Shown here in pieces: positions 28,755 through 61,518 of a DNA stretch of 64,000 nt. The translations under genes were made by a program, and so were the position numbers. The notes under the pieces are model-generated. The model was not told the DNA's origin, searched no databases, and saw nothing but the letters and a program-made list of their open reading frames with translations. The stretch is from a candidate division FCPU426 bacterium (lineage in GTDB: Bacteria > Oederibacteriota > JAAXVQ01 > JAUVAV01), in the NCBI GenBank assembly GCA_030591525.1, contig JAUVAV010000012.1, forward strand, positions 1 to 64,000, written 5' to 3'. Positions within the stretch are counted from its first letter, which is position 1. Each line of letters begins with the position of its first letter.

Positions 28755-28758
28755 AAAT

Positions 28759-33205: not shown

Positions 33206-33244
33206 TAAAAAACACCTGCAAGCCGCGTTACAATCCAGTCATTC

Positions 33245-34491: not shown

Positions 34492-37400
34492 TTAGGCCGC
34501 CCATATCGCCTTGAGTTGCTGGCCCGGTGTCGGCATGGGTATGGCTTCGCCATCCATGTAAAGGAAATCGTAATGGTTATTAAAAAGCATTTGTGCCAGC
34601 AAAGACTTGTTCTCCATAAGCATGGCTGGAATATTGATAACCCTTAAGCCGGCTTTGGTTCGGATCTGAATTGACTCCAGGTTTAAAGGTTCCAGCAAGG
34701 ATAGTACCTCTAGCACCCCGGTCCGGTAGTCTGCATTAACATCTTTCCGATCCAGCTCCCTAAGAAGCATACGAATCATTTTTACGAGGAGGAAGGAGCT
34801 GTAGTTTTTATCCATCTGTTGCAGCGCCCCCTGGTATCTACGCGCAAATATCATATCCGCCATCAATGTGCTCAGCTTACTAATCCGGGCCAGTTCTCCC
34901 GCAGTGGGTTGGGTTTTCAGCCTAAGCTGTGCCAATTCTTGGTTTGCGGCGCTCAATATACTCTTGGCTTCTGCCCGCGATGTGGTAAGATTTCGTACCA
35001 GTTGCTCAGGCAGCCCGTCCGCCCGCATCTCTACCTGGCTCAGCATGTGAGCTTGCTTGGCAAAATGCCAGGTTACTGCTTCTATTTTTATGAATTCATT
35101 GATCAGCATAAGCAATTCGGGTTGAAGGCTGTCCAGATTTATTCCGCGCCATATTAAAAATTCTTCGAAAAATGGTATTTTGCGCAGCGTATCCTTGATC
35201 CAAATTAATATATTCAGGGGGATTTTCAGGGAATCCGGGATCTTAGAGGGTTGGCCCTTTAAACTCTCCAGCTTTATCCCTTTATCCATAAGCTGCTGGA
35301 GATCCAGTAATTGCTGCCCCAATTGCGGATGCTTGCCGACCAGGTCACCAACATTGCCGGTTACGATTCTGGTCATGAGGCGCAAGGCCTTTAAAAAGGC
35401 GGAAAAAAATTCAGGCTGCACTAAATAGAGAAGCGGCAAGCGCTGAGGCTTTAACTCTTTTTCCAAGGTAGTTTTACGCGCGCGTCCACTCAAAGAACGC
35501 AGGATTAATCCCACTGCTGCCAACCCCAGTACTACCATGGAGAAGGTTTTAACCAGACCACTGCTCAACAGGAATTTTGTCGGCTCAGGCACGGGCAATC
35601 TTTCTCCAACAGAGTCCGCTGCCTTCTCCTCGGGAGACCGAGTATCTTGCTTATAATAGACGCCTGATTCCAAAAAAGTTGTCCCCTCCGGCCACGGGGT
35701 GCCATGCCTGCCATGCTTCCCACGCAGTACCAAAGCCTTGTCAAGAAGGTTATCCAATCCATCCACAGCACTTAAATATCGCTTCTGAGTAAGCGGTTTT
35801 TTGGCTAAAGCCTCCATCTTGGATTTACCGGGCATTTTAATGCTTAATTCATTATTGACTCTATCTTCAAGCTCCTCGCTAATTCCAAACATATCATCCA
35901 CAGGTCCTAAATGTATGGGACTCAATCCCATGCTCTCCGCATGTGTCGCCAGGCTCTGCAAACTGGCAGCTGAAGCCACGCCAATATCAGAAGGATACAC
36001 CACAACCAGTCCATCTCCATCCTTTAAAACCTCGTTAACCTGTTCTAGCATTGCGCGGGCTTTAGAATCAACCCCAAGCGCTTGTGAGTCTAAACCGAGC
36101 TTCTTAAGAAGCTCAGTATTTTCAGTGCTTACCTGGGCCTGGACAGGTTCCGGTAAGTAAAGATGACCCAAAAGGTGTCGGTGTGTTTCCGCCTGCTCCA
36201 TGGTAAGAAGTATGTAATTGTTCAATGCATTTGCATTGATTAATCCCTGCATCAATTGATTATTGGCGTTAATGAGTTCTTTCACGGTTGCCGACTGATC
36301 AGAATTTTGTATGGCATTTATGGGAATTGCTGTCATATTCACCAGTACATCGTTCCCCACCTGAAAAGTATTTCCGGGCTCCAGAGTCAGCGCCATCATG
36401 CCGTTAATTGTAGGCGGCAAACCAATAAGCTGACCGGTTGGACCCATGGTTAAAGTGTTGATTGTCACAGCCGCTTGAAAATTCATCCAATCCTCGGAAC
36501 CGGACGGGGCTTGCATTGCAAGCAGGTATCTCATCGCATCAGCCAAGGCCGGATTATTAGTGTGAAAACTTGGCGGCGGCAGCGGATCGACCTGCCCCCG
36601 CCACTGATCGAAAAATCCGGACATCAATGGCACGGCCTGTGACAATGCCAGGGGTATATCGGCCGCAGCACTCAGCTCGGCGAGCGTGAAGGGGGCGGAG
36701 GGGGCGGACGCGGGTGCCATTGGTTGAATGGGTGAGACAGGGGCAGGTGAGGCAGCTGGCTGGGTGGAGGACGTATCTGTAACGCTGGCGTCTGGTCTGA
36801 CCCCGAATTTGGCAGTTTTTGGGGTCTGTGCCCTCTTTCGCATTTTATCCAAACCACTCAGCACGTCTCCCTCAGTTTCCACTTGTGGCACTATCAGGTC
36901 AGGCTCTTGCTCATCTATGTTAGGTTCTTCGGCTACCAGGACAGGTTGGGTAAGCGATGGTTGTGATTCCTCCTTTTGATTTAATCCAAAGGCCATAATA
37001 GTTTGCGGGTTTGTCTTTGCATCGACTTTTGGCATATGTAAGGCCCCCATCGATTCAGGTATATTAACTTCATAACCACTTCCATCATATTCAGGCTCAA
37101 TTCCACTGTCAACCGGCATAACTTCGCTTACTTGCTTAGTATGCGCTGGGGTTGGAAATAAACTTATCGCGTCCGGATTAAGTCCCGTTGCAGGCATAGC
37201 GTTGGTCTTAACTATTTCATGCAACGCCCTGGCAGAAGCTATCTTGGCTGATAATTCAAATCTCCATTTAGGCCAGGAAGGATGCTCGCCCAAGTCTTCG
37301 AAATGCTTCAATTCATGTATTAAATATGCTTCTGCCATTACCCGTGGCAGAAGCAAAAATATTGGATGTATGTGAATTTTCTGGTTCTCAATATACAAAG

Positions 37401-40400
37401 GCGCAAATCCCCGTCGGAAAAACTGCTGAATGATATTTCCTGCTTGCGGCCTGAGTTCCAAATTTGATTTATCATAAGAATATTCTGTGCAGCGGGAAAG
37501 AACCCAGGTATTTTTCTTCATCCATTTATTTCCGAAAATATCATCCGCTTCATTCCACTCCTTTAAATTGCGTTCAAGCGCCTCTGGTTGGATTCGTCCC
37601 AGAGCCTCAAAATAAACCATCTGAATAATTCTATACATCAAATACGTTCCGGCCGCGAAAAATCCCAATAGATGAGAATGCACCAACCAGGTCGCTATTG
37701 TTCCGCCAAGTACTGCGAAGAACAAGGAGTTAACAAATGAAAAGTTAATATTCAATCTCGGGAGTCTTCTGCCTGGCACCTCACTGGAAGCCAGGTTGCG
37801 GCTCGCTCTATATAAGGCGCTATCTGGCACATTAGCAGAGACCGGGAAGCTTAAAAGGTTGCTGCCACGTTTTTCTAAATGTTTTTGAAATTGCTCAAAG
37901 GCCTGTTCTTCCTCCGGGCTTAACTCCGCTGCAAATAATTCTACTATCTGGCTCGCTGCGGGATCTTCCAGAAGCCCTGAGTTTACCGATTTTTTTAGTA
38001 AAAACAAGGCCCATTTATCGCACCAGGTTTCAATAAAATACTGCCAGGGCATTAACTCCTGAACATCTCCGCCTATGGCTTTAAGCACGCCCTTGACAAT
38101 AAACACTCCGGGATTTCGCTTGAATAACTGGGAAAAATAAGTCATCCAGCTAATCCCTCCCTCTCCATCCGGCATTGTATAAATAAGTTCATGCAACGCA
38201 GCATGCCCAGTCTCATGGAATGGGGCCAGATACCGCATAATATTCAATCCCAGCGCATGCTTTTGTTCTGCGTCCATGTTTGCTATGGCTGGCATCCCTT
38301 TTTCAACAATAGACGCTAATTCTTGCGAGTTATAAACCTTGAGTATTGCGGCGTTGGCAGGCGTCATACTGGACAAACTGCGGTCTAATTTTTCCATATC
38401 AGCTTTCCATGAATTTTTAAACCGGGCTAGTAAGGCCAGCGGATCGAAATCCTCTGCTGTCTTCTGGGGATCAAAAAGTCCGCTCTTAGGACGGACTACT
38501 GCAATTGACACCGCTAACCGGATTATGTTGTTTACCGCTTCAGGTAATTTGTCAACCGTAGCAAAGGTTATGCCTTGTAAATTTTCGTTTTTATAAGATA
38601 TAATCCGCGCTAAAAGAGCTTCTAGATTGCCTAATCCTAATTGCTTCAATAATTTTCTCGTTCTCGCCATATCATCTCGGCCAACAATAATATCATAACC
38701 TTCAACTGGTAAGTCTTCCCACCGGGACACAGCAATTCCTAAGGTCTGCTCTGTAGTTCGGTCAAGTTCATCCTCTAATTCCGCTAGAGTAAGGCGAGAT
38801 GGAGTGGTGCCATAAATATTTCCAAAAGTTGGTTCTGTATCTTTTGATTTTTTACCGTGCCCAGTTGAGACCTGTCCAACCAGAAAAAGCATTCCGGCAA
38901 AAAAACCAAGTCCGATATCCCCTATAGGATTAATAACCACGGTATTTAGATAAGTAAAGAAATCAGAGAGTCTTCCCGGAATCGCGGCCGCATCATGCGC
39001 ATAGACGGTCAGGTTCTGGAATATAGGGAGGGATAAGACTTGCTGGAGGCTCGCGGTGATTCCCGGCAATAAAATCTTCGGGGCCGGGTTTCCAACACCC
39101 AGGGTATTCACGGCCTCAGCCGAGGCTGTCCCCATAGTAAAAACCAGCAGGGTTAAAGGCAGCAGAATAGCAGAAACAATTATGCCCCGTTTGAACAATG
39201 CCGGATTTTTTTGAGGGAGTTGTGCCAGGGTTTTAAAATTCGCGGCTGTCCACCAGATCCCCACGCCGATCAGACCTATCCCGAGTGCCGGGGCCACTAT
39301 CGGGGCCACTATCGGCAGAAACGCCGAGAGCACGAACGCGATTGCGCCCATGCTAAAAACAAATAAGCTCAATATGCGCATATTGTTGGAAGCTAATACA
39401 CTGGTTTGCCCGGCGGTCTGCGCCTCCACCCCTTGCAAAATATCAATTTTATTTTTGCTTAAACGCACTACTATTAGATTCGCGCCTTCGGAGATAATCT
39501 GGATAAAGTTATTCTTTACGCGTTTGAGCGAGAGATTGTCCCACTCAAGCGTGGAACTCTTATGGTCTTGTATTCGTGTTACCGCCTCCCGCATAAAACC
39601 CATGGCTGAGATAAACAAGGCACGGAAATTGGGCTGTACCATCTGGTTTGGAGCTGAGATGGCTGAGACTCCGGCCGCATGCTGAGCCAGCAGTCTCTCT
39701 AATTCGGTGGGCTGATCCGGGTAGCGGAGCTGGTTAAAATAATTATTTGAAAAACCGGCCTCTTCCATGCGCGGGCGCAGGGAAACATAGGAACATCCCT
39801 GGTTCCGGATAAGCTCAATAATCGCCGGGGTATGGAATCCTCCGGTAACCAGAATCACCCGGCTCTCGCCCCGGTCGCGCGCGCGTTGGGCCGTGTTCTC
39901 CAGAAGCGCGTGGTTGCGCTGCTCGGCCAAAGCATAGAACTTCAGGGCTTTCCCCACCGCCTCCTCAAGCGCTTCTATCTCTTCTTCCGCAGTATAACGG
40001 CTCTCTTCAGGCAGGGCTTGCAGAAGGTTCAACACTCCGGCCAGAGAGAGTTTCCCGGTCTGCTTTTGATAGGCCTGAATATCTTTGCGCGAGGCGGCTA
40101 CGCTGACAATCCGCTCCACGATTTCCACGTATTTCCGGTGACTAAGCAGACGTTTTTCATTGGCAGTTCTGGCCAGTCGACCGTGAATTTTGGTTTCCAG
40201 ATAGCGGTCCTGGGTTTCTTGGTCATGATAATCCAGCCGTCCCGCGCCCCTAGCCTGCAAAGCCGGCGGCAAAAGCGCAATCTTTAAGCCGCGCGCCTGC
40301 TGGATCAAATGATGGTGATAAGCTTCCACGTCCAGGTCGCCGCGCATAAAAGTCCGGCGCCTTTGCTCAAAGACCTTTAATTCTTGGTTATAGAACTGGT

Positions 40401-41058
40401 TCTCCAGCAGTTCCAGTTGATCCAGAAGTTCCAGAATCAGCCCGCGATTTTCCTCACTGCCAAAAGCCTGAATCAGCTCTATGCTTTTAGCATAAAGCTG
40501 TGGATCTTCGGCACCGAAAAGCTCCATAGCCGGAGAATCACAGATAGCCAGGCAATCCGCGCCGGTCAGCTTGCCTTCCTGCATAAAATAATCCGCCACA
40601 GCGCGTTTGACGGCGGAATCCGGGAGCATGGCCAGCTCCATGGTGGGAATAATGCCGGTCGCGCCCTCGACTGCCACTAATTTTAATTCCGAATGCTTGT
40701 CCATCAGACGATTAAGCATTTTCCGAATATTAGTCTGGATTTCATAATTGCAATGCAGGTCCTGTACCAGGATAAAGGTTAAATCCCCGGGCGCAAAACC
40801 CGCTTCCACGATTTTGCCCAGATTGGGCGGGATCCGGTATTCTGCGGCCAGCCTTTTATCGTGAGGTCCGAACAGGCGGGTTTTAGCCGACCCGTCGTTC
40901 TCATAGGTTTTAATATCAAAAGCCCAGCTGATGGTTGGCAATAGAAAGCACAGGCTGATTAACAGCGCTACGCTGCGCGTGATTACACTGCGCCGGGGCG
41001 CACGCCATTGCGACAGGCTCGCTATTTTATTAATATGGAAGAAAGATAGATTAAACAT
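34492..41058 (-). CDS. giant secreted multidomain protein (2188 aa): Tiki/TraB-like N-terminal domain, TM segments, two HExxH motifs, shared C-terminal domain
   Basis: Single uninterrupted ORF with RBS and signal peptide (RRSVITRSVALLISLCFLLPTISWAF). ILVQDLHCNYEIQ...VAVEGA...VTGGFH motifs; HETGHAALHE and HELKHFEDLGEHP; ends AIWAA*. Confidence 0.85.
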   Translation of the reverse strand: MFNLSFFHINKIASLSQWRAPRRSVITRSVALLISLCFLLPTISWAFDIKTYENDGSAKTRLFGPHDKRLAAEYRIPPNLGKIVEAGFAPGDLTFILVQDLHCNYEIQTNIRKMLNRLMDKHSELKLVAVEGATGIIPTMELAMLPDSAVKRAVADYFMQEGKLTGADCLAICDSPAMELFGAEDPQLYAKSIELIQAFGSEENRGLILELLDQLELLENQFYNQELKVFEQRRRTFMRGDLDVEAYHHHLIQQARGLKIALLPPALQARGAGRLDYHDQETQDRYLETKIHGRLARTANEKRLLSHRKYVEIVERIVSVAASRKDIQAYQKQTGKLSLAGVLNLLQALPEESRYTAEEEIEALEEAVGKALKFYALAEQRNHALLENTAQRARDRGESRVILVTGGFHTPAIIELIRNQGCSYVSLRPRMEEAGFSNNYFNQLRYPDQPTELERLLAQHAAGVSAISAPNQMVQPNFRALFISAMGFMREAVTRIQDHKSSTLEWDNLSLKRVKNNFIQIISEGANLIVVRLSKNKIDILQGVEAQTAGQTSVLASNNMRILSLFVFSMGAIAFVLSAFLPIVAPIVAPALGIGLIGVGIWWTAANFKTLAQLPQKNPALFKRGIIVSAILLPLTLLVFTMGTASAEAVNTLGVGNPAPKILLPGITASLQQVLSLPIFQNLTVYAHDAAAIPGRLSDFFTYLNTVVINPIGDIGLGFFAGMLFLVGQVSTGHGKKSKDTEPTFGNIYGTTPSRLTLAELEDELDRTTEQTLGIAVSRWEDLPVEGYDIIVGRDDMARTRKLLKQLGLGNLEALLARIISYKNENLQGITFATVDKLPEAVNNIIRLAVSIAVVRPKSGLFDPQKTAEDFDPLALLARFKNSWKADMEKLDRSLSSMTPANAAILKVYNSQELASIVEKGMPAIANMDAEQKHALGLNIMRYLAPFHETGHAALHELIYTMPDGEGGISWMTYFSQLFKRNPGVFIVKGVLKAIGGDVQELMPWQYFIETWCDKWALFLLKKSVNSGLLEDPAASQIVELFAAELSPEEEQAFEQFQKHLEKRGSNLLSFPVSANVPDSALYRASRNLASSEVPGRRLPRLNINFSFVNSLFFAVLGGTIATWLVHSHLLGFFAAGTYLMYRIIQMVYFEALGRIQPEALERNLKEWNEADDIFGNKWMKKNTWVLSRCTEYSYDKSNLELRPQAGNIIQQFFRRGFAPLYIENQKIHIHPIFLLLPRVMAEAYLIHELKHFEDLGEHPSWPKWRFELSAKIASARALHEIVKTNAMPATGLNPDAISLFPTPAHTKQVSEVMPVDSGIEPEYDGSGYEVNIPESMGALHMPKVDAKTNPQTIMAFGLNQKEESQPSLTQPVLVAEEPNIDEQEPDLIVPQVETEGDVLSGLDKMRKRAQTPKTAKFGVRPDASVTDTSSTQPAASPAPVSPIQPMAPASAPSAPFTLAELSAAADIPLALSQAVPLMSGFFDQWRGQVDPLPPPSFHTNNPALADAMRYLLAMQAPSGSEDWMNFQAAVTINTLTMGPTGQLIGLPPTINGMMALTLEPGNTFQVGNDVLVNMTAIPINAIQNSDQSATVKELINANNQLMQGLINANALNNYILLTMEQAETHRHLLGHLYLPEPVQAQVSTENTELLKKLGLDSQALGVDSKARAMLEQVNEVLKDGDGLVVVYPSDIGVASAASLQSLATHAESMGLSPIHLGPVDDMFGISEELEDRVNNELSIKMPGKSKMEALAKKPLTQKRYLSAVDGLDNLLDKALVLRGKHGRHGTPWPEGTTFLESGVYYKQDTRSPEEKAADSVGERLPVPEPTKFLLSSGLVKTFSMVVLGLAAVGLILRSLSGRARKTTLEKELKPQRLPLLYLVQPEFFSAFLKALRLMTRIVTGNVGDLVGKHPQLGQQLLDLQQLMDKGIKLESLKGQPSKIPDSLKIPLNILIWIKDTLRKIPFFEEFLIWRGINLDSLQPELLMLINEFIKIEAVTWHFAKQAHMLSQVEMRADGLPEQLVRNLTTSRAEAKSILSAANQELAQLRLKTQPTAGELARISKLSTLMADMIFARRYQGALQQMDKNYSSFLLVKMIRMLLRELDRKDVNADYRTGVLEVLSLLEPLNLESIQIRTKAGLRVINIPAMLMENKSLLAQMLFNNHYDFLYMDGEAIPMPTPGQQLKAIWAA

Positions 41059-41094
41059 ATGTAATACTCCTCTGTAATGGATTAAATTATATCG

Positions 41095-41202
41095 AGTTCC
41101 TGTTGCGGAAAGAGCAAATTCCCCTCCCTTGACGGGAGGGGATTATCCTAACCTCCCCCCTCAAGGGGGAGGAATTTATTTTGGCTTTCCGCAACAGATA
41201 CT
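41095..41202. repeat. 108-bp element with the same terminal inverted repeat but a different interior
   Basis: AGTTCCTGTTGCGGAAAG...CCCCTCCCTTGACGGGAGGGG...CCTCCCCCCTCAAGGGGGAGG...CTTTCCGCAACAGATACT; interior-related partial copy at about 17081-17152. Confidence 0.8.
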
Positions 41203-41328
41203 ATTTAATGGTATTTTTGTTTGTTCTTTCTACGCAGGCTAAAGCCTGCGGCTGCCTTTCTTGTTCTAAAATATACTTTTATTATATCATATATTTACAC
41301 TTGTTGCAAATTGGAGCATAATTTTTTA

Positions 41329-44300
41329 TTAGGCCGCGCTTCCTATAGTTGGACCTCTCCTTGGCTCAACTATAGGCTGACCATTTTCATCCAATATGTT
41401 CAATAACTTCAAACGGTTGAATAGCGAGGACCGCTCGAAAATCACGTCCGGCAAGCTCATGACCCTTACTTTTCCCCCAATTTCTATTTGAATTGTCCGC
41501 TTTTCACCCGGCATAGCCTCTAAAATTGTCAAAACATCCTCTACCGCGCCCGGGTCAATGGCCATGACCTGGTTCATGACTCTTAATAGCCCGAGAATCA
41601 CAATTTCCTGCGCCCGGGGCCATTTCGAGGCCGATTGAAGCTTTTTATTCATCCAAGCGCTCTTCATTACTGAACTTACCCAGGCCGAGGCAAGTTCCGG
41701 GCCGGTATTCACCTGGTAGGCAAAGTATTTATTTGGCCTCACAGAAGCGACAACAAAAATCCCGGTCCTGACTGCCGCTTCTGCGCTTAGAATTCCTCCT
41801 AACAGAAAGACCATGCCGGCCCATAGGCCGGATGAAATTCCCGTTGTCAAATATCCACGCGCCCTGGATAAAAATCTTGCCGCTTTCCAGCTCTCAACCC
41901 CGTTGAACGCCCTGGTTATGAACCGGCTTGCCGGAAGGGATGATTGAGGCACTATACCAAATTTTAGCATACGCTCAATTTCTTCCAGAACCTTAGGAAT
42001 ATTTTCGGCGGCGATAAAAATCGATTTCGGACGGACCGCAGTGCCTGTCCCAACCCCCTTGGCCTCTGCGGTTTTCATGATTTCGCCAACCAGGTTGCCA
42101 AAGCGGGTATTTTCCAGGGGAATGGTTATACGTGTTGAAGATCCGAAGCTCCTGGCAAACTCAATCAGTCCATTATAGGCTTCTATTACCTGCTTTGGTT
42201 CGAGATAAAACCCCAGCCAGGGATTGAACTGCGTACCTGAAATTTCCAGTTTAATCTTACTCTCTTTCACCAGGGTCTGCATAACCGCGACTTGCAAATC
42301 CGAATAATATTCCAGCAGCAAGCGTTCGGGATTACCGGCATCCAGACTGCCGAGTCTAAATACCTCTTTCTTATCAATAATAGCCTGTACCAGCCGGGCC
42401 AGTGAGGAATTGCCTAATTTTAACTCTTCCAGGGATTTTTTCCCGGCATTAATTTCCACTGCCAGGCTTTCTCCCTCCATAAAGTCTCTGGCCAGGGCCA
42501 GTACCCGCTCAGTGGGAGAACCCGGAACACACGCGAGCCGGCCGTTATGATATGCTATGCCAGCCAAAGCCAAGTGGACTGGCGTGCTGACAAACTTTTC
42601 CAGACCCGGCCGGCCGGCCTGGGTTTCTTCTTGGGCCAGCTTAAGAATGTTTCTTAAATCGTCCTCCAAATAGAAATTTCCGACCAGCGGAATCCGGGCG
42701 CGATAACCCTGTTGCCCTGACCAGACCAGGGCTTTTGAAATAATGTCCTCTTGTTCAACACGCATGTCTATCACGGGTTCTTTCACTCCCGTACCCGCGC
42801 CAAACCATGCCGCAACCTGCTGGCGGATATTCATCGGCAAATTCGTCAAGAATGCCATCACCTTGGCCGGTCCGCTTTCTATCTCCTGGCCCAGGATTCT
42901 TGCGCTGTGCAATTTCATGTCATTCCGGGAGACAAACTGCATCACAACATTATTTTCCAGCCTGACTTCAGGCATCATCAACAGCTCGGGATAATCGGTT
43001 AGCACACCACCCGGACGCAGGACAATGTAAAAATTCTGGCCTTTAATCTGAAAGGCATATATATTTTTTCCGGGATTGGAATAATTTTCACGGAACTGTA
43101 AACGCGTCTTTATGCTCTCCGGCAGAGTCCCCAAAAACGCTTTGGCCAGGGCCGCGTCATATCTTTCATTCACTTCCTTAGCTCTCGCCTGGGCAGCCAG
43201 CCCTTTTACGTTTTCTTCCAGCCTGACAAACAAACGCAGCATGGCTTCCTTTACCAGCATGAAGTGCCTCTGGAAATCCGCCTTTTCGAAGCTGGTGGAA
43301 GGCGCAAAAAGGTTTTCTTTCCTGGCCAGCAACTGGTCCAGTGAAGTGCGTTTATTGCGAATCAGGGAAAAATAGGGATTGGGTACATCGGTTCGGGTAA
43401 TGCGCGGTTTAATTGCCAGGTAGGAGACCTGGTTTTCACGCAGGGCCTGCTCGACATGCGAGGCATGAAAACCGCCGGTAATCAGCACTGCCAGCCCTTG
43501 CCCCTGGCTCTGCATGTGACTGAGCAAATTTCGCACAAAGGCCGAGGAACGCTGGTCTGCCACTTTATAAAAATCCGCGGCTTGGGCCAGAAATTCATCC
43601 AGCCGCAGGATCCCGGAATCAATATCCGGCTCAATCACATAACGGTAACAAACCTCTTCCAGAAAACGGAGCATCGCGGCCGCGGAAAATTCTTTACGAT
43701 GCGAGCGGAAATACTTCAAATCCTTCTCCGTAGCGCTGATATTAACCATGCTCTCCATCACCTTGAGCAGGTAAAGATAGTGATCCAGTTGCCGCTGATC
43801 CGGCGAAGTATACAGTTTGCGGCGCAGTCCTTGGTCCAGGCTCTCGGCGTCTTCCAGCAGACGCTCGTAATCGAGGGTGGCGGTGAGCGGAAGCTTGTGA
43901 TTCACGGCATAGAGCGTTAACGCCTTAAAGGAAGCGGTTTCTATTCCCTGCTTCCGGGCCTCGCCCAGGAGAAAATCACAGTAATTTTCGAGAGTAATAT
44001 TTTCGTAATCATATTCCTCTTGCTTATGATCCAGCTTAGCCAGGCCCATATTGTAAAGCGGCTTCTTGAGGCGCACCAAGGCGTCCCGTATGTCTTCGCA
44101 ATAGCCCTGGCTTTCTTCATTGAGAAATGTGAGCAGGGATTTCTTATTTGCCTGGTACAAGGCCTTATCCTCAATGCCTTCCAGTGCCAGGGGCTTATCA
44201 CCCGTACCGGCCTGGTACTCCGCTCCGGTAATCAAACCCCTCCGCATGAAGTACTGCCCTATGTCTATTTTGACTTTTTTAACGGGAAAGGCTGAGAGCA

Positions 44301-44682
44301 GGGAAACATCCACTTTTTCGCTATCGCCTTCCACTCCGATCAGGCGCAACTGGTTGCGCTCGGCCAGCTTGCGGATAATAGCCGCGATATTGCCCTGGAC
44401 TTCATAGTTGCAGTGCAAATCCTGAATATACACCACAGTGTATTGGGAAGTGCTTTTATGACAGCCGGTTATTATCCCGCATTTCTCCGGAATTTTAATA
44501 ACCGCGCCGTTAGCCTTTAAGGCTGTCTGGCCCGGACCGGATTCTACACCAGCCGCATAAACCCGGCTATCGAAAACAAAAGCCGTATAGGGGAAAATGA
44601 AACAAATAGACATTAGGAAGGAAATGATTTTTATCCGGGTTTTTCTCCGGGCGTTCTGCCCGGCATTTAAAGAAGATTTCAT
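41329..44682 (-). CDS. large secreted protein (about 1117 aa): Tiki/TraB-like N-terminal domain, shared C-terminal domain
   Basis: Signal peptide; VYIQDLHCNYEVQGNIAAII...LIGVEGD...YFMRRGLITGAEY...LITGGFHASHV, colinear with the N-terminus of the 2188-aa protein; ends TIGSAA*. Confidence 0.85.
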   Translation of the reverse strand: MKSSLNAGQNARRKTRIKIISFLMSICFIFPYTAFVFDSRVYAAGVESGPGQTALKANGAVIKIPEKCGIITGCHKSTSQYTVVYIQDLHCNYEVQGNIAAIIRKLAERNQLRLIGVEGDSEKVDVSLLSAFPVKKVKIDIGQYFMRRGLITGAEYQAGTGDKPLALEGIEDKALYQANKKSLLTFLNEESQGYCEDIRDALVRLKKPLYNMGLAKLDHKQEEYDYENITLENYCDFLLGEARKQGIETASFKALTLYAVNHKLPLTATLDYERLLEDAESLDQGLRRKLYTSPDQRQLDHYLYLLKVMESMVNISATEKDLKYFRSHRKEFSAAAMLRFLEEVCYRYVIEPDIDSGILRLDEFLAQAADFYKVADQRSSAFVRNLLSHMQSQGQGLAVLITGGFHASHVEQALRENQVSYLAIKPRITRTDVPNPYFSLIRNKRTSLDQLLARKENLFAPSTSFEKADFQRHFMLVKEAMLRLFVRLEENVKGLAAQARAKEVNERYDAALAKAFLGTLPESIKTRLQFRENYSNPGKNIYAFQIKGQNFYIVLRPGGVLTDYPELLMMPEVRLENNVVMQFVSRNDMKLHSARILGQEIESGPAKVMAFLTNLPMNIRQQVAAWFGAGTGVKEPVIDMRVEQEDIISKALVWSGQQGYRARIPLVGNFYLEDDLRNILKLAQEETQAGRPGLEKFVSTPVHLALAGIAYHNGRLACVPGSPTERVLALARDFMEGESLAVEINAGKKSLEELKLGNSSLARLVQAIIDKKEVFRLGSLDAGNPERLLLEYYSDLQVAVMQTLVKESKIKLEISGTQFNPWLGFYLEPKQVIEAYNGLIEFARSFGSSTRITIPLENTRFGNLVGEIMKTAEAKGVGTGTAVRPKSIFIAAENIPKVLEEIERMLKFGIVPQSSLPASRFITRAFNGVESWKAARFLSRARGYLTTGISSGLWAGMVFLLGGILSAEAAVRTGIFVVASVRPNKYFAYQVNTGPELASAWVSSVMKSAWMNKKLQSASKWPRAQEIVILGLLRVMNQVMAIDPGAVEDVLTILEAMPGEKRTIQIEIGGKVRVMSLPDVIFERSSLFNRLKLLNILDENGQPIVEPRRGPTIGSAA

Positions 44683-45048
44683 TTTGGCTCTCCGCAATAG
44701 ATACTATAATACTGCAGTATTTTTCGCAACGCAAGTAATCGGATACAATATTGCTTATAATATGTTATTATCGGCCGCAGCAAGCAGCGCCTTTATAGAA
44801 ATTACAACCATAGCAATTATTTTTAGGGGCACAAGAATCCAAGATTTTAGTATATCACACAAAGCCAAACAAGGCAAGCGTGTTGTTTTAAAACGGTTTG
44901 TTTTATTTTGTTTTAAACCAGGGCTTTTATAGCACGCTTGGCTTTCCGGCCTGTTTTTGCGGATAATATGCGGGCTGGCACATCTGTCGCATTTCTTTGG
45001 GCGCGATAAATCACGCCCCTACGGTATTCAATTCACGCGCAATTAATA

Positions 45049-45088
45049 TAAAAAAAGCCCGGCTCCTGAATAACAGAAGCCGGGCTTT
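45049..45088 (-). terminator. Rho-independent terminator of the giant 5471-aa gene
   Basis: On the minus strand: AAAAGCCCGGCTTCTGTTATTCAGGAGCCGGGCTTTTTTTAT, a GC-rich hairpin plus T-tract starting about 15 nt after the stop codon. Confidence 0.88.
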
Positions 45089-45102
45089 TGGGTTCGAAAA
45101 GA

Positions 45103-48100
45103 TCAGGCAGCGCTGCCGGGCAAGTTCAGTTTCATCGGCTTTTTGATCGGCTCCAACTGCAGATTAATAATGGTTATGCCCCTGTCTCCTAGGCTCTTAA
45201 AGATATAGCCGATCTTGCGGTCATCAGTAAGCGTCCTGGGCACGGTTTCTGGCGTCAGTTGCACTTTCAAGGCATAGCTATGCTTATCGTATTTCATATT
45301 AACCTGGAACTGCAGCATGCCCAGAACCTGGACCACATCCTCAGTTAACTTTATCTTAGCCGCGTTGGATATATCGGAATCCACAACAGTTACCAAGTGT
45401 TCCAGAGCAAACCGGATGGCCCGGTTGCGCATATTCTCTGAAACTGCCTGCTGCGTTCCCTTAATCCCCAGGTTTTCTATGGCCTTCACAAACCCGGGAT
45501 TTTGCATAAGCGCTGGCAAAGTAATCTTCTGATAAGTCTGGTAGGACATGCCGAATTGTTGGGTAAAGCTTTCCAGGTTTTGCTCTACTTGCGCATTATT
45601 ACCCGCCTGCATTAGATTCAAAATTACGCCGGCGGCCTGCGCCATCTCCGGATCAGTTGACGCGAAACCAGTGGTCTGCAATTGTTCAGCCACGGCATTA
45701 GTGGGATTCAGATTAAAGGCGATCTTCCCGGACTGGATCCACACCAGGGCGCCCTCCATGGCCACAGCCGCTCCGGCTGCCAGGGCCGCCAATCCCAAGG
45801 CCACGGGCAGAACTCCGGATACAGTTCCCAGAACCACTCCGCCGATTATGGCCGCTACTGTGCCAAGGCCCAGCATTTGCTGACCCGCGGTCCTGACATT
45901 GGCAGTGGGTTGATTATCCCGGTTCAAATCCTCCACGCTGAAAAAGTACTGCATGATCCGCTGGACCATGGGAGGAGTGATCATTTCCTGATAAGCCGCG
46001 TAAGAAATTCCAAAGGTCTCCTCGAACTCAGTCTTCTTGGCCGGACGGACACGGCCGGAAGCGCTCTCTATTTCCCCGGCCTTAACCTGCATTTGTGAAT
46101 AGGCCCCATTCTCTATTTCTAGCATAGCCTGGTTAATCTCTATCAAATCCCTTTCTTTAAATTTATAACCCCCAAATTTTTCAGCGATAAAATCACAGGC
46201 CAGCTCCAGCACAGCATTTCCGTGAGCCATGTTTTGCAGATCCTCTCCATTGGTAATATATTGCTTGATGAATTCCGTCACAGGGTAATAATCACCTTTG
46301 AATTCCCAGCTTTGCGATAATACACTGTTCAGGAATTTTTGCTCCGGCTCGGTGAGTATAACGTTCTTAGCCGCCTGGATCGCGCCGTTGAACAGCACTT
46401 CGGAGAAACGCCGCTCAAAGAAAGCCAGTGCGTTTTCTGGCACATGGATAACTCCGGCCTGGTCAGCGCCTTCGGCTGGCGCGCCGATATTAACAACGCG
46501 GAGCCCTCCTTGTTTGGCCTCAATGCTCATCCTCTGCCAGATGTTCGGCATAACCGTGGAATCCGGGGAAGCCGGAATTGCCGGCACGAGGTCGAACAGG
46601 GCGGCCAGCATGTGCATATAGCCGTAGGTTTTCGCGTTCTTGGCTACGTTAAGCTTTACGCCAAGCAAACTCATGATTCCGGCCAATGCTGTATAAGCCT
46701 CTGTCCCGTCATGGCTCGGACCCATCGCGTCCTTCCAGGCCTTTACCACGCCGTCCGTATGCAGAGACTGCCCGCCCGTTTCTTCGAAAAGAAGACGACT
46801 GCCCCCGACCGGCTCTACCATCTCATCTGTCGTCTTCGTCCGCGGTACAGGTATTATAAAACCGCCCAGGAAAGACAAGGCCACTGCTCCGGATGCCGTG
46901 CCAACACTACTGACCAGCAGTATGGCGGTCGCGGCTACCAGGCCGGTTAAAGGAACCAAATTTTCTTTTTTCAGCGATTTTCGGACCAATGCCTTAGCCA
47001 TGAAAGGAGTTAAACTTCGCATAGAGCTTAGGCTATCCTTCAACCCCAGTACGCTCAAAGATGTCCGGCTGAAAGTAACAGCCACGGGTTCAAATATGCC
47101 GAGGCGGTTTTTAAAGCCTGCGTAGACACGATTCCTCAACCTCTGCTCTATTCCATAGCGAAGTTGCAGGTCTTCTCTCCCGGCTTGCATATTGGCAAGA
47201 TAGTTTTGGGCCTGTTCCAGGGTCATGCTTTGGCCCTGGTAAGTTATAACCTCTGCCGCCGCTGCCTGGGCGGCTAATCCAGCAGCAGCCGCCACTCCAG
47301 CCGCGGCCGCGGCTGCGGTTACTGGTTCTGTGGCCGCTTGCCTCTCATTTATAAGCGCCTCCAGCTCAGCTATGGCCTGCGGCATACGGTGATACTGCGC
47401 CTTGGCCGCGGTTGATTGGCGCAAGATCGAAATAGGTATGTTTAAACCGCTAAAAACGGATTCCGCCGGTTGGCCCAGGTTCTCATAGAAACGCCAGTCA
47501 GCGCCGAATTTCTCAGCCATGGCCGGTTCTACCCACTGGGCGCCGTAGGTTTCATAATATCTTTGAATATCCGCGACCATCTGGAAATGATCGTTACTCC
47601 ACATAGTTTTCTGCGCTTCCGCCTTAGCCATCTCCATTGCCTTTTGATACCATTTATTGCCATGCTCTTGCTTCAGAATTTTTACCGCTTTCGGATTATT
47701 CTCATTCCATGTTGCCATATCCACGCTCACATCTGCTTTCCTATCCGCTTTCATCCCTGCCAGCGTATTCTCAAACCAGAGTGTTTTTTCTTTTTCTCCC
47801 ATTTGAAGAGGAGAGTTAACTGCCGCCGCCATCCCAAGGTATTGCGCTATTCCCTGCCAATCCTCGTTGTAAGCGCGGATCAGGTTGATTTTATAGGCAT
47901 CAGCCTGCAGGGCGCTCTGTAGAGTTGCTATATAATTAGTCACGAAAGGTATGCGCCATCCCCGCACTCCCATGCCCTCACCAATAGTCGGATTTTTCCC
48001 GAAAACCGAGGAAGGCGCATGCTTCCCGCCTGTTAATTCCGAAATTCCCCGGGCCTCGCGCAAGCGGCCGGGCAGGTTCTTGGCCGCGGTCCGCGCCAGT

Positions 48101-51100
48101 TCCTGGAGATACTTCGGGCTGCTTTCTTCCACGCGCACGGTCTCGGTCTTTGCCAGATCGCCGGCCTGGGTTTTGGCCACTTCGCCGGCTTTCGCAGTAT
48201 CAATTTCCTTGAGATACTCCTGCATAACCTTGTCAAACAATTTAAAGAAACTCTTCTGTGCCGCCTTTGCCTCGAGGCCGCCTTTTTTATATTCCTCAAA
48301 GAATTTTTCGAATTTCACTCTTTCCGTGCCCTTCATATGGCTGATCCGGTTTAAATCCAGGTCCAGGCTGGTGCGCGCATCTACGCGCATGCCTTCAACA
48401 TTTCCCCGCTTCACGGCCTGGTTAAATACATCTCCGGGCGAGAGATCCATCTTGTACAAGGCCGCTTTGAACTGGGATTTAGCCGAGAGTCCGCGCACAG
48501 TGCCAAAAATATTCAGACCCTCGCCAATATTGGGAGCAAAGACGTAGCGCTGCTGGGTCCAGCCCAGGTCCTGCTTAATTGCCTCGATCTTGACCAGTTG
48601 CTCAGCCATCGCCTTATTTTCTTTAATTTCCATCCAGTCATGGATCGAACGTTTTTGGGAAGTTCTCATAAATGTTTCCAAAGAATTCCTCAACCCAGGA
48701 CTTAAGGTGTGGTAATATTTCGGTTTACTGAGAATCTCCGCAATTTCCGGCATTTTATGAATAACTTTTTGCATGGCCTCTACTGCGACGGCATAACTCT
48801 CAGGACTCATTCCATCTATCATAATTACCTGCAGTTTTCCCGTGCCGGAGGATGCCAGCATATCCTTGACCACAATATCAATAGCCGCTTTATTCTCTCC
48901 TCCCTTTACCCACTCTAGATTTTCAACCGCCCTGGCTTTTCCCCCTTCCCTGGTATCCGCTTTCATCTCCCTAAAACGTGTTTCAATAGTGTCCATGGAA
49001 ATCTTGATTACTTCCGTGCCGGCGTTCCGGGCGGCTTTCTCAGACATACTTCTAAGGATTAAATTATTATCATGCACAAATACCTGCTGAGTATTGCCGT
49101 CCTGCATATTTCTGGCGGCGCGGTCCAGCATGAACTCTTCAAATTTCGCCTTGCCCATTACTTCCAGTTTGAGAGATCCGTCATATGCTTTCCTGAGAAA
49201 CATGATTTCATTTCCCACCTTAACCGAGAACGCCACTTCACCGCTTTTCACGTGATCCATGGTAATATGTTCCTCAGCCGTAACCTCCATTATCCGCTTG
49301 CCGGACTGGCGCATGGCCGCTTGCAGTCCCTGTAAAGTTCCGGAATAGCCCACAATATTTTTTGAACCGATCAGGTCCATGGCTTCCAGCATGGTTACCC
49401 GCTTGGTAGTCACGTGGGCCAGGGCCTCTCCGGCCTTTATTACAAATCCTTCATTGGCCATGAGTTCACTCGCGCTTTTGCCTCTGCCTTCAGCGCTCTT
49501 TATCATTATGTCTATCAACTGGAAGGCGGATTGATAATGGTCTCCGTAGATGGTATTGGTCTTGCCCACGCCCTTCTCTGCCGTGCCATACTCCGGCACT
49601 CCATCCTTTACAATACCCATATATTCACGGCCGTTCTGGTTGTACATAGTCTGGGCCATTTTACGCAGCAGGTAAGCATTGCCGCTGCTTTTAGCGTCCA
49701 GACGCGCTTGTTCCAGTGCCTTGCCCAGGGTTTTGCCTCTATAGTCTCCCTCTTGAATTTTATACTCCAAATTGAATTCCATCTGATCCCGAATTTCCTC
49801 GCGCGGATTGGTTTTTTGATTTTTGAAAATCTCATTTTGCGCGCCGGTCCTCTGCAGATCCCTGGCCAGAATATCATTGACCTTGATATAACTATCGGTC
49901 AAGGTTTCGATCGCGGCTCTTAGCTGGCTCTTCGTGCCCTGGGGCAGGAATTCCCAAACCCCGGCCGATCCCAGGATGGTGTCTGTGGTGTGAAAAGCGG
50001 AATGGTATTCATCCCAGGCCTTGGTCCCGACATCCTCGAAAAATTTCCTGATCCGGGCGTCGGAATAACCCTTGCCGCGCATCTCCAAAATCATCAGCTT
50101 TACGCCTTCATTGGAAATCACGTAAACCTTATCCGGCTTCAGGCCCTGCTCAATAATCCGTCCCATGTTGGCCTTGGTAATCATTTCAGCATTCATATTC
50201 TTCATGGCCGGCTCATTCATAATCTGCCTGACCAGAGGCTCCACGGCCGTGATGTACATGGCAGCCGGCGCCGGCCGGCCGTTATGCGCCTGGCTGTAAA
50301 GAGCACGCGCCAGCTCCAGGGAGATCACACCGGCGGATTTCCCGCCTCCCATACCCAATAAGTTGGCCTCGCCCATAACAGACTGGGCCACGCTGTACGA
50401 CTTGCCGTGAAGCTCCAGGTTCAAGTAATGAAGTTCCAGCACACGGGTCAGGAATGTAAGCTGGTCGCCTTTGGCCGTAAATTGCGGGTAATCTTTATTA
50501 AAGGCCTTGGCCAGCTCACGGCTCAGCATGCGGATATGCGCATCCTGCGGTATATTTTCATTGCCTTTAATAATTCCGTCCAATTCAGCATCTATCTCTT
50601 TAGTGGTTTTCCCAGCCTCCTCAAGCGTCCTGATCTTTCTAACGAGCTCAACCATTGCCCGGCCTATCTCTCCTCTCATTATGCTGCCTTCCTTCAGTAC
50701 ACTATATTTAATTCCCTCTGCCTTCAGTATCTCATTCAGGACTTTGGCATCTTGCAGTTTCTCGATAAAATCAGCTCTCTCCTTGACCAACTTCGTTATC
50801 TCCGCCTTGATTGCGGCATCTTTCGTGAGCAGGCTTTTGATCCGGGCCCATCGCGAGCTGCTTTCCAGGCCTTCTGTCAATTTCTCGATTTTTGCGTCCC
50901 GCCTGATTAATTCCCGGACATTACTCACTACTTTACCGTCAACCTTTAGTTTCTCTAAATTCCTGATAATTTTATCCGCATATGCCGCACGCTCGGCTGA
51001 TACCATTTTTCGATACTCTTTTGACAATCCTTGCGCCTCAACGAGTTTATTAATGGTTTGGACCTCTTGGGCGTATTGCTTACTCAAACGCGCGGCCTGT

Positions 51101-54100: not shown

Positions 54101-57100
54101 ACGCGGCCGCCTTGTTCCATGCGGGTAGATTGTTTATTATCCATCTCAGCGGCTTTTTGCAGGATCGTTTCAATAGCGCCTTTGGACTTTGTTCCCTCCA
54201 GCGCCTTGATCAAATTGCCTATGGCATCCGGGCTTTTGCCGATCTCGGTCATCAGGCTATCAATATTCTTTTGGTCTGGGCTTTTCTGCCTTGCCTTGGT
54301 GCTGATATCGGCCACATCCGAACCTTTGCCGGGCCGGGCTTCGGTCTTTAACATGCTCTCAGCCATGGTTTCTGATACCAGTTTGTTTTCAAACATAGTC
54401 CTGGCCATTTTTGGGTTCTCTCCGAGCATACGGCCGGCCTCTGCTAAAACCCCCTGGGATTTTATGCTGTCCCGGGTAAAGGTGCGAACAACATCAGTAG
54501 CTTTTCCGCCCTTGGCAGAGCTTTCCAGAATGTCAAGAAGTTTGGCCGAATCCGCGGCTGAATTTTTCCCCAGCAGTTCGGTCAGAAGTTTGCCTCCCAG
54601 GGCGTCTCCATTTTCCGCCAGTCGTATAATACTTTCCGCCTGGACTTCCGGGCTTTTAGTCTTGAGCCCCTCAGCCGTTTTTCCCAAAGCTGTATTAAGT
54701 TTATGTCCGGCAACCAGCCTCTGTCCATCAGTGGAGGCGCTTTTTAACGCCTCAATAGCGTTAATTACGCCACTCTCAAAAGGCTGCAGGTCCTTGGGAG
54801 CTTCCGCGTTTTTCCCAGTGGTCTTAACCTCGCCTCTCAAAGCCTCGGTGGTTCCGAGTCTCACTACTTTGCCATCACCAGTATCAATCTCCAGGAATTT
54901 TTTGCCTTCGGTCAATGCTGCTGCATCGCCTTTTTCCAAGGTAATAGGGTCTTTGCCCTCAAACTTGAACGTCATATCGCCGTTTTTAGCAACCTCAACC
55001 TCAATAATCTCGGTTTTCCCGTCCTTAGTTTTCAACTCAACTTTTATTGTTTTGCCGTTCCCAAGGTCCAGCGGTTTGACCGGATTATTGATGTCCAGCT
55101 TGATCTCTATATCTTTCGCGGACTGAACACCCTCGGTCTTACTGTTCTTTGCAGATATCGCCTGCCCGGCTGTGGTTTTTCCCGGCTCGTACTTAACCGC
55201 CGCCCTGTGACTCATGCGACCCGTGCTTTCGCCGGGCTCTATTTTGGCTGATGCTTTGATTTGCTCGCCGGATTTCGTAGGTTTTCCTGTGATTGCATCT
55301 GCGCTCTTACCTGCATCTGCTTTGACCCCCGGTCCCTGTTCGGCTGGTTTGGCTTCCGGAAGCTTGCGCAACTCCCCGAGTTTTTGCATGGTTGATTTCC
55401 CGGAAAGCAAAATATCCACAACCCGGCTGAATTCAGGTTTAGCACTGCTCCGGTTTTTAGCGCCTATGTCAATTATCTTAGCCAGGATCGGGATCCCTAC
55501 GGCCTGTACGTGTGGTTTAACTATACGGTACCCGTGCCCGGCCATCATAAATGCGAAGAAAATCCCGAGAGCGCCGGCTGTCATTATCAGCGCGTTATCC
55601 GCGACATTAAAGGCATTATCCATACTCCAGGAGTTCTGCGCGAGCAGACTGGTCCCATGAAAAAATTCCTTAAACGGGTGTACGAAAAAGTTAGTGAACA
55701 CGGTACCCACCGCACCAAACAGCCCCTTGCTCATCTCCGCCAGTACCATGGTGCCTAAGAACGCCACTCCTACCGCGGGAACCAGTACCGAGGCTGCGAT
55801 AACGGTTATCAGGATCATATTCTGGCTTGCTAATTTGAGGCCAAAATACGTCATAGCGCTAACAGATGTAACGCTTTCTTTTATATAATTTTGGACCATT
55901 TCGCTTGGAATATTATTAAACCAACCGCTATTGGATAACCTGTCCGGCCATTCCCGGACGTGATTATCCGCAAGAAAGTCCAGTTGCCCCATAGCGCCGG
56001 ACAATAAAACAGTAAGTCCGCCCATGGCGCCAGTGCCTACAACCGCAAGGGCGTCTGGTATTATGCCAGGTTTGGTAACACCAAGAAGAGCTCCTACCGC
56101 TCCCAAATAATTTCCAGCGCGAGCCTGGCTTTTGACCTCCGTCCAGGAGGGTAGGGTAAGACCGGTAAGCGTTCCTAATGCGCCCCACCCATCCCCAGCG
56201 CGAACTTGGCTTCTGAACTCCGCGCCATGCTTATGCCCGCTTGCCCAGGCGTGGGACAAACCCACAAAAGCCTCCCGCTGTATGTTTTTACCCCGGGTAA
56301 AACCATCGGTTTTTTCAACCCCGGCGCTGTTATAAAGCCGGTAAGTGTTTGTTTCGGTGTTTATTACTTTAATATTGTCGCCTGATACTCCCAAAATTAA
56401 TGTTCCTTCATCGGTCTGTCCTATGCTCTTTCCATTTATAAAAGCCATCTTGATTCCCGTAACCCCGGTTAGAACACTTACTTCTATCTGCTCGTCCTTA
56501 CGGTTCATCAACACAGTGCCGGCGACTAATTCCTGGCCGTCGCCGGGGACTATGGTATATATGCCATTATTAGAATACTTTATGCGTTCTCCGTTTTGAG
56601 TATAATGAAATTTATGCTCACTCTGAACCGTAATGCCCGCGTCCTTAAGGGCGGCATCGGTTCCGCTTAGGCTCTCTACCTGTAAGCCTAGCGCCTTTTG
56701 CTCGGTAATTCCGTCTTTCGCCGCACTAATAAGCATTAAAGGCGGGCACAGGGCCAAAACACCTGGTTTACGCAACTCTTCTTTGGTTTTTATTCCGGTA
56801 GTAACTTGCAGGAATTCGCCGTTCTTAGTTTCAACCAGACCCGTTAATTTATTTCCTTCCTCGGTAAACTGCATGTTTATCATGCCGTCTGACTCGTATT
56901 CAATATCCAGTTTGTCGCCGTTGGCAGTGGTATAAGTTTGCCCTTCTCCCTCTGCCAGATAATCGAGCACGTCTTCCCCGATGCCTGCCTCCTGGAACGC
57001 AGCTTTGGACCCACTCGCCGTCTGGACTTTCATTTCATCTTCGGTCATCCCGGCCATGACCATGATATTGCCTTTATCCGTCTCGATAACACCCAGGGTG

Positions 57101-60100
57101 TTGAAGACAGCCTTGCCCTTGCCGTCTTCGCTCACGCGCACCTCATACTTGCCATTCTTGTCAAACTTTACATCGTTCCCCTCAAAGGTCTGGGGTAATC
57201 CCTTTATTTCCTCCCCAGAGACTCCCATCTTATCCATAAATCCCTCATCGCCTTTAAGCATGATAGCCTGTGGATTGCCCAGTGCTCCTGTTACTATCCG
57301 GGGGTTGCCGTTAATCACTATTTCTTGTCCAATATTCTTCTGAATATCCGCATTTTCGGAGAAACTCATGAACTCGGCTTTAATTTCAGCAAAAACGACT
57401 CCGCTTTCCTTGCTGCCCTGTATCATGAACCGGGTGTTGCCAGTGCCCGTTTCTCTGGTTAAATCAATAGTGGCAACCCCGTTCCCGTGTACGAATTGCA
57501 CATTCTCCTTCTTGGCATCTCCCACCCAGACATTGCCGGCCTCGATTTTATCCACCAGGAGGGACGGTACGCCGAAGCTTCGCATGGCGTCAGTATCGCC
57601 GTGCACATGCGCCATTTCCATCTTATTGGTATCCGTATTCAGCATGGATATGATATTCAGATCGCCTTCGAAGGTTTTGCCGACTCCTGCCAGGCCGTAG
57701 GTGGTTGTGTCGCCATCCTTGCCCAGGTAAATTCTAACCTTGTTGTCATTATTTACATAATCCGCATCATTGATTCTAGTCGCAGCCTCATCTCCATACT
57801 CATTCCCGGCCAGCACATACTCTCCAAGCTTTAATTCAGATGTTCCCATCCCGCCTATATAGGTCTCGCCTGAGGCGACGGCGTTTCTAACCTCTAGCGG
57901 AATTTCCAAACCCGGATCATTCAATGCCTTCAGGGACAGCTCCGCTTCACCGATTTCAAAACGGCTGTTAGTCCAGGCCGCGGTAAATTCCATCTCCCCA
58001 TCGCAACCCTCTCCGCTAACCAAGAAAGCATATTCCCCGTTTTCGTCCGCAACCGTGGATACGGCAAACGAGATAATATTGTCATTAATATAGCCGGCAT
58101 CTGCGATTTTTACATTGTCAAATAGAGTCTGCGTCCCGGCCGCGGCCGCCGCTGTCACCATTTCCACGGGCGCGCCCATTTCAATGGCAGCCTCCGTATC
58201 CCCGCTAACCCGTGCTATATTCAGCACACCATTCTCTTCATCCACTGCGGCATAGCATCTCGCGATTCCTCCCGCCTCGCCAGTATAAGTTACATCCATA
58301 CCATAGCTAACCTCGCCGCTTTCGGCTACTCCCCGGTGGAAAGTAACCATGCCGTTATCACTGTATTTCTCCCCGGTTACCCTTTGGCCGGTAAAGTAGG
58401 ATTTTTGATCTCTAGCAGCCTCTGCCGCCTCATGGGAAATCCCAATTTTCTCGGCTATTATCATATCTTCAGGCACCACGCAGCCGGTCATTTCCACGGT
58501 ATGGGACAGGGTCCTCCCGGCGGTCATGTCAACCTCGGTTCCGTCGACCACGCCCGTAAACTTCATTCCCCCATTACTATCCGCCGTATATAAGCCGTTA
58601 TCATTCGTGAGGTGCTGCTCATCCAAATTGGTTACTCCCTGAATGGTCCCGCCCTGGTTCTCCAATTGACTAAACAATTTGGCATCCACATACTGCCCGG
58701 TAATCAGGCCCTGTTGCGTGCCCTGAGTCTCAATCCGCGTCCAGTCTGACCCGCCGGCGCATACGTCCGTGCTATAGATTTCTACTTGTCCCAACACACT
58801 GCTCTGGGTATCTGTTTTGGTAAGGCCGCTTCCCGGAACTAAATTGACTGTGACCTGATGCTTGGTGACTTCCTCCAGCTTGACGTCCACGCCTTGTTCG
58901 TCGGCATACTTGGCAATGTTCATATTTATACTCTGCTCGACATTAAACTCGATCAGTCCGGGCTGTACCCCGCTTCCACCACCGCCTTCTTCGCTGGGAA
59001 GAATACGGCCGCCGGTTGCAGTATATATCTCTGTCGTCACTTTCTCGTCGGTTGAGACCAACTTGAACCCGCCATTGGCCGTGGTCTCGAAAGTAAAGTC
59101 CTGTCCTCCGCCACTCAGGCCGGCCAAACTTTCTGCGGTAATATCTCCGTTCCGGTTATATTGCAGAACTACATTTTTGTCCTGGTTGTCGGTAAAATTT
59201 TCCAGGATTACTTTGGTCCCCTGGAGGTTTCCCTCTTGATAATAGGATATCGCCTTTCCCGATCCATCCTCCCTGGTTGCTTCTACGTTGAAATTGGTAA
59301 TCTGCCCATCACGGGAAGCGCTGATATCCACGATTTCCTTCCCATTGCTCAGCGAGGCCTTATACAATTCGCTGTTTTTATACGTGGCGGTATAGCTCAA
59401 ATCGCCGGCATTTTCGAACGTATTCTGGCCTACAACTTGGTAGTTGCCTGATTCAATGTTTTCCTGGGTTCCAACATATAGTGTTCCATCCTGGGTCTGG
59501 ATGGCTAATTTTCCCTCCAGTTGGTTTTGTTGATCCTGGTTCAATCCGCTATGCTGAAGCATTTTCGGGGTTAGGTCCACTTTTGACAATTGGTTGCCCT
59601 TGAAATCCACTGCCAGGTTTCCATAAAACTGGAAGCTCGCTTCCGCCGATGGGATCGCATTCACCACCTGACTGGTTTCCGCACCCACTACGCTCGCAAT
59701 CATACCCTGCCCGGTTTCCAGATTCACGTCTATGGTATATATTTGATTCTGTTCCTGGTAAAAGGTCTTTTGGGTTCCCAGATGGACCAGCAGGTTCTGG
59801 CTAATCGTTCCTCCGTCTGCGGTATTAATTGTTACGGGCATCCGGGAGGCGGCCAGTTCCAATTGGCCGTTATTCAGGTTAAATATCTGCTCAATTTGTT
59901 GCCCATAATTAGTCGAAGTGGTTACGCCGGAAACTTGCAAGGGTTCTTCTTTAGGCTTGAATAAGTTGCTTATCCAATTATCCGAAAATCCGGCCGGCTG
60001 GCTGCTGTTTTCATTGGGTGTGAAATTTATTCTTACCTCTAATATCCCGTTGCCGGTATCAACCGAGTTGGTCAGCGTGTATCCGTTATTGTTTTTAGTT

Positions 60101-61518: not shown

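Follow-up and report, generated by a model that had tools for sequence, protein, structure and literature searches.

Three giant open reading frames (ORFs), P0001, P0002, and P0003, lie consecutively on the minus strand of a 64,000-nucleotide window from a candidate division FCPU426 genome (bases 1-64000 of contig C44, 75.2 kb; genome of 2.70 Mb in 91 contigs, 96% complete). The real unit to which they belong is not the trio itself; it is a genome-wide family of 16 ORFs starting with a conserved N-terminal module, the head, and four tag-only ORFs, which carry the conserved C-terminal tail without a detected head. Alignments of the members establish that the head is constant and its putative active site invariant, that the tail is constant too, and that the cargo in between is swapped and grows. 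The best explanation, favoured tentatively and at somewhat less than an even chance, is that these giants form a class in which both ends are fixed and the cargo can be exchanged; an active head would be exported by its signal sequence, the tail would be read by a partner, and one machinery would handle many cargos.

P0001 (34492..41058, minus strand; 2188 amino acids, aa) is composed of a signal sequence, an N-module resembling the TIKI/erythromycin esterase (Ere) superfamily, a hydrophobic block, a region with HExxH motifs, and the C-terminal tag. P0002 (41329..44682, minus strand; 1117 aa from ATG) has the signal sequence, the N-module, a short cargo, and the tag, while P0003 (45103..61518, minus strand; 5471 aa from ATG) has a signal or anchor and the tag, but no N-module. 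As described in the initial annotation, all three frames are open, no ordinary gene is found in between, and a long basic n-region followed by a hydrophobic segment is present in each. The frames are not chimeric; P0001 orthologues of 2108-2362 aa are found in relatives, and homologues of P0003 occur elsewhere as ORFs of 5.7-7.8 thousand amino acids (kaa). No Pfam model reached its cut-off in any of the three proteins (best E 0.008), and no NCBIfam family was matched with an E-value of 1 or below.

The Head Module

Searched with P0002, the own genome yielded 16 places on twelve contigs, where ORFs of 1.1-6.6 kaa start with sequences matching the first ~470 residues of P0002. Taken as open-frame lengths, truncated ORFs included, the headed ORFs sum up to 52,127 aa, corresponding to 5.8% of the genome. 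The head is a conserved module of ~430 aa located behind a conserved signal sequence, and both P0001 and P0002 start with it. In the own-genome alignment, the common signal region reads S-x-W-x-x-P-R-R-x-x-T-K-I-I-S-L-L-I..F-V-F-P-x-L-T-W-A-F, and the common core motifs are QDLHCNYEVQ, VEG, TGGFH, and NPYF. On the P0002 module (43288..44550, minus strand), the putative catalytic positions, numbered from the alternative TTG start, are D93-L-H95 (44413..44421), E123 of the VEG motif (44329..44331), and H411 of GGFH (43465..43476). D93-x-H95, E123, and H411 are invariant in 16 of 16 own heads and 65 of 65 collected heads, and so are C96 and Q101. The P0001 module (39679..40926, minus strand) represents a divergent branch, being 25-30% identical to the others, in which D-x-H, E, and GGFH are kept.

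An AlphaFold2 model of the P0002 head, calculated from a 65-sequence alignment (pLDDT 89.8, pTM 0.88), predicts an alpha/beta core with a parallel beta-sheet, assigning the head with moderate support to the TIKI/Ere superfamily. Foldseek against the PDB ranked EreC first (prob 0.96, E 2.5e-3), with the Ere-type protein BcR135 at ranks 3, 4, and 6. When the head was compared with four Ere-family sequences by hhalign, DLHxxxE..VEG was aligned with GEASHGTHE..AIE at p 0.008, while ten column-shuffled control profiles gave p 0.26-0.70. A structurally studied member of the TIKI superfamily requires four residues, namely, E-x-H, E, and H (PMC6254334). The counterparts of these two His and two Glu positions in the head, matched by motif order, are D-x-H, E, and GGxH, with a conservative Asp for the first Glu. 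Since these counterparts are invariant, the head is very probably an active TIKI-superfamily hydrolase, as predicted from sequence and model, with Asp replacing the first Glu. Besides this replacement, the head differs from the superfamily in a long helical region between the two halves of the core and in its position as N-terminal header of giant proteins. It is also unmatched by existing Pfam and NCBIfam models; TraB/PrgY/gumN (PF01963), Cofac_haem_bdg (PF04187), and Erythro_esteras (PF05139) failed to match any of the 16 modules, and none of these three families was found in the own genome or in the rest of the order. The Tiki/TraB-like domain proposed in the initial annotation thus stands for P0001 and P0002 at the level of the TIKI/Ere superfamily but not as Pfam TraB, membership of which was rejected, as was that of ChaN (hhalign to TraB, p=0.51). 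An HMMER search of PDB sequences with the head returned no match, and Foldseek against viral structures gave nothing below E 9e-3.

The C-Terminal Tail

The C-terminal region that P0001, P0002, and P0003 had been suspected by eye to share is indeed a common domain, since one 156-position model detects it in all three: in P0001 at 34495..34944 (ending ..IWAA), in P0002 at 41332..41781 (..GSAA), and in P0003 at 45106..45555 (..GSAA), each on the minus strand. The model was built from the C-terminal alignment of 15 own-genome members; it recovers all 15 and, in the same genome, the independent tag-only ORF C81:4257 (1558 aa, E 3e-13). The other tail-bearing ORFs without a detected head are P0003, C63:4763, and C91:3165, the last of which runs off its contig. 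Tails usually end in ..R..R....[SA]A and are rich in K/R at positions -16 to -4 (mean of 3.3 K/R versus 0.9 D/E). The terminal AA is present in 14 of the 15 own members and in 26 of 37 members from relatives, and the last residue is A in 49 of 52 tails. The collected loci contain 102 non-overlapping ORFs with a length of 300 aa or more; a terminal AA is found in 25 of them, and each of these 25 is a family member.

Like the PEP-CTERM and type IX secretion system C-terminal domain sorting tags, the tail is a C-terminal region common to otherwise unrelated exported proteins. A PEP-CTERM-like tag would consist of a PEP motif, a terminal transmembrane helix, and a basic end; the window tails differ from both sorting tags in that they have no terminal hydrophobic helix, no fold match, and a free [S/A]A end.

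Variable Cargo

In an all-versus-all BLAST of the collected members, similarity beyond the head was found almost solely near the C-termini. The cargo between the ends, about 0.4 to over 5 kaa in length, is mostly unrelated among paralogues, and for most of it there was no Pfam match. Where recognizable, it consists largely of metabolic-type enzymes. At least two copies of triosephosphate isomerase (TIM; Pfam 4e-121) are carried by paralogues; one copy keeps the GNWK, GHSE, and YEP motifs, while a separate, normal TIM, 35-39% identical to the cargo TIM, is encoded at C56 of the same genome. Further cargo comprises a PPDK ATP-binding and phosphohistidine domain (6e-55), a nucleotidyltransferase (1e-29), iPGM (1.5e-25), a methyltransferase, and an alpha/beta hydrolase. 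SecA_DEAD scored above the curated cut-off in three headed giants of relatives (G005:C42, G002:C4, and G001:C13), and a UPF1-like helicase is found in an Omnitrophica giant. If metabolic enzymes are inserted in giants, they would have been recruited in an unusual way.

Two details of individual members may be added. A headed giant of >4205 aa (L010, G000:C78) contains tandem TIM domains at residues about 2790-3330. In another ORF (L013, G000:C43), the same hydrophobic segment occurs twice, at residues 978 and 3284, within a long internal duplication, which suggests growth by segment duplication.

Relatives within the Order

Each of the eight genomes belonging to the order has the head, in 8-24 copies, and the named records bearing it are mostly metagenome-assembled genomes of FCPU426, Firestonebacteria, and Goldiibacteriota. 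An orthologue of P0001 was found in seven of seven relatives, measuring 2108-2362 aa where complete (in G006, the contig ends inside the gene); judged by these alignments, P0001 is a length-stable core orthologue in the order. The gene immediately upstream of the P0001 orthologues bears the tail, and it matches P0002 where its sequence is readable (G001, G002, G005, and G007); in G003 and G004, the upstream tails end in SSA, which fits, but a clear P0002 match was not obtained. While P0001 keeps its length, the neighbouring P0002 locus varies from 1122 aa in the own genome over 1718 (G007) and 3312 (G005) to 5753 aa (G002). As comparison of aligned members demonstrates, cargo grows and is swapped through captured domains and internal duplications, also within a single orthologous locus.

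Homologues of P0003 are present in six relatives, often in multiple copies, and, as far as homologue counts tell, the gene has been multiplied independently in other genomes. Only in G002 is a homologue located close to the P0002-P0001 pair, with another gene in between. Of the coupled trio that had been postulated, the P0002-P0001 pair holds, being adjacent in every testable relative, but P0003 does not belong to it. Directly 3' of P0003, an intrinsic terminator (45053..45089, minus strand; 16 pairs, 9 of them GC, and a U-run) separates this gene from P0002; together with the synteny, it rules out that the three genes form a single operon or a conserved group.

In two relatives, a gene of ~900 aa with a signal sequence lies immediately upstream of the P0002 orthologue; this gene is absent from the window (L132/L133 in G002:C36, joined 26078-28771, and L028:1593-4418).

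Occurrence in Omnitrophota

For a wider search of 391 genomes, a head alignment including two Omnitrophota sequences was used at E<=1e-5. The head was found in 21 genomes, namely, the eight of the order, one with a weak match in the phylum, and 12 elsewhere, where ~350 more distant genomes were sampled. The longest distant headed ORFs have 24,620, 13,841, 10,690, and 10,168 aa, and the distant matches that carry a name are Omnitrophota. In one Omnitrophica genome (L096, G098), the head begins several ORFs of 1017 to 10,021 aa, and the six ORF ends read in this genome share, by eye, a different tail of their own, R..P...I..wR...EA....S[AL]. The link to Omnitrophota drawn in the initial annotation is therefore valid as far as the head sits on Omnitrophota giant ORFs; the relatives in the order are labelled FCPU426, Firestonebacteria, or Goldiibacteriota, and not Omnitrophota. 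The 24,620-aa ORF (G276:C22:70250) lies in a genome with 54 first-look candidates, four of which were scored, and this genome may hold dozens of headed giants.

Giant ORFs of Omnitrophota are known and were called poorly conserved, with a role that is unknown (Seymour et al. 2023, PMC10066038; also PMC12057145). They resemble the family described here in their great length, in the large number of transmembrane helices predicted for them, and in the scarcity of annotated domains (PMC10066038), and share the head on ORFs of up to 10,021 aa in Omnitrophica; they differ in that the order of the window lies outside Omnitrophota. The length criterion for these giants is >20 kb; ORFs in the window are up to 16.5 kb long, and headed ORFs elsewhere up to 74 kb (G276). 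No common head or tail of giants was found to be named in PMC10066038 or in the other literature searched, which did not include the main preprint (West-Roberts 2023), and the claim of novelty for head and tail is limited accordingly. Among known bacterial genes, the giant genes of Omnitrophota and their relatives rank with the largest. The constant head and tail provide a first sequence handle by which such giants can be found, counted, and compared, and with a head domain of ~430 aa, function becomes testable in place of a protein of 5,000 aa.

Proposed Mechanism and Alternatives

In the favoured explanation, the constant head consists of a Sec-type signal sequence and a TIKI/Ere-superfamily domain. 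The signal would take the head to the envelope, where it would be active as a hydrolase, either a protease or an esterase. The free C-terminus would be the handle for a dedicated partner, which could be a sorting factor, an AAA+ unfoldase, or a PDZ-type protease or processing factor, and a single machinery could thereby serve many different cargos. The repertoire would serve envelope display or the delivery of enzymes in cell-cell interaction, and the window contains two headed members, P0001 and P0002, and the tag-only member P0003. That an obligatory TIKI-type peptidase head and the [S/A]A tag, both read by a dedicated machinery, constitute an undescribed export or sorting system in at least two uncultured phyla, with giants as carriers of interchangeable cargo of whole enzymes, is possible but doubtful; if true, such a system would bring together a large part of the giant genes of Omnitrophota and related lineages that are so far unexplained. 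Constant terminal parts on either side of exchangeable cargo are likewise found in polymorphic and MARTX-type giant secreted proteins. From these, the giants described here differ, as neither known trafficking domains nor toxin families were found in them and the recognizable cargo is of the metabolic type.

Several findings weigh against this explanation. The Foldseek E-values of the head are weak (best 2.5e-3) and the TM-scores low (0.15-0.27), so the TIKI/Ere assignment rests on the Foldseek ranking and the motifs. The AlphaFold2 model of the tail is of medium confidence (pLDDT 71.6, with the last 10 residues low), and Foldseek of the tail against the PDB gave no fold match. In most headed ORFs, the head is followed by 1-4 hydrophobic segments, and topology prediction by hydropathy and charge was contradictory; judged by the charges around the post-head hydrophobic block, the end of the head would be intracellular, contrary to the signal sequence. 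Finally, TIM, PPDK, and iPGM act on cytosolic metabolites, which suggests either that the cargo is cytosolic or that it is delivered into another cell. With many members combining several hydrophobic segments and cytosol-type enzymes, the label "secreted" given to the three proteins at the outset is no more than putative.

Delivery into another cell is the essence of one alternative, considered unlikely, in which giants with a constant arm and variable cargo would be multi-enzyme effectors and the TIKI-type head would aid entry or processing. The constant ends with swapped cytosol-type enzymes would suit this role, as would a TIM copy with intact motifs next to a normal housekeeping TIM, and related giant ORFs have been tied to attached, predatory Omnitrophota (PMC10066038); however, no known delivery domain or toxin family was found, and hydrophobic segments number as many as 25 in several members. 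Cytosolic cargo, on the other hand, would be expected of membrane-tethered scaffolds of the own cell, with the head in the periplasm, serving metabolism or envelope biogenesis. The hydrophobic blocks after the head in most paralogues, the dependence of the cargo on ATP and sugar phosphates, and the recurrence of the phosphomannose isomerase (PMI), ClpC, and subtilase genes beside P0001 speak for such scaffolds. This arrangement is nevertheless fairly improbable, as the charge pattern is no clean fit to the topology and the cargo, unlike housekeeping enzymes, is not conserved among close relatives.

The tail could also be read as a degradation tag for Clp-type proteases, limiting unexported giants, and not as a sorting signal. 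AA or SA ends nearly all tails, the ssrA tag likewise ends in AA, and a ClpC-type gene adjoins P0001 in four genomes, the own included. Yet the residue preceding AA is mostly S/G/Q and not L/V, a longer stretch upstream of AA is conserved as well, and ClpC is a common housekeeping gene, which makes this alternative distinctly improbable. That there is no system at all, the highly variable cargo with its duplications being due to assembly chimeras or neutral accretion of domains through ORF fusion, is hardly credible in view of intact frames in eight separately assembled genomes, an invariant active site, constant tails, and conserved P0002-P0001 synteny.

P0003 and Further Features of the Window

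P0003 had been proposed to contain a SecA-like motor. A conserved region (47974..50856, minus strand) does include P-loop-like motifs (GMGGGKS, WDEYHS, SGT, and NIGEGLN), but the SecA identity was not confirmed, with HMMER, Pfam, PDB, and hhalign searches all negative and the hhalign similarity no better than that of shuffled controls. An alternative GTG start would extend P0003 to 5516 aa (ATG at 61518), and a TTG located five codons upstream of the ATG at 44682, inside a short repeat, would extend P0002 to 1122 aa. The HExxH motif reported for P0001 occurs twice, at residues 948 and 1248; the first (residues 948-952; 38203..38217, minus strand) is invariant among the aligned orthologues, while the second varies and is not kept. 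As for the repeats reported earlier, only short and weak direct repeats were seen between the three genes, and strong ones were not.

Rfam and tRNA scans of the window gave no matches. Between P0002 and P0001, a palindromic element of ~100 bp with GTTGCGGAAAG inverted ends is located at 41103-41204, which is possibly an insertion resembling a miniature inverted-repeat transposable element; a sequence similar to its ends precedes the ATG of P0002. Beside P0001, the genes of a ClpC-type AAA+ unfoldase and PMI, with an adjoining subtilase gene, are found at 30484-34264 (minus strand), and this neighbourhood recurs in G003, G006, and G007. A 533-aa protein of the window (26001-27602, minus strand) matches the RuBisCO large-chain catalytic domain (residues 118-284) and, C-terminally, a cupin domain (residues 450-517), which is an unusual combination.
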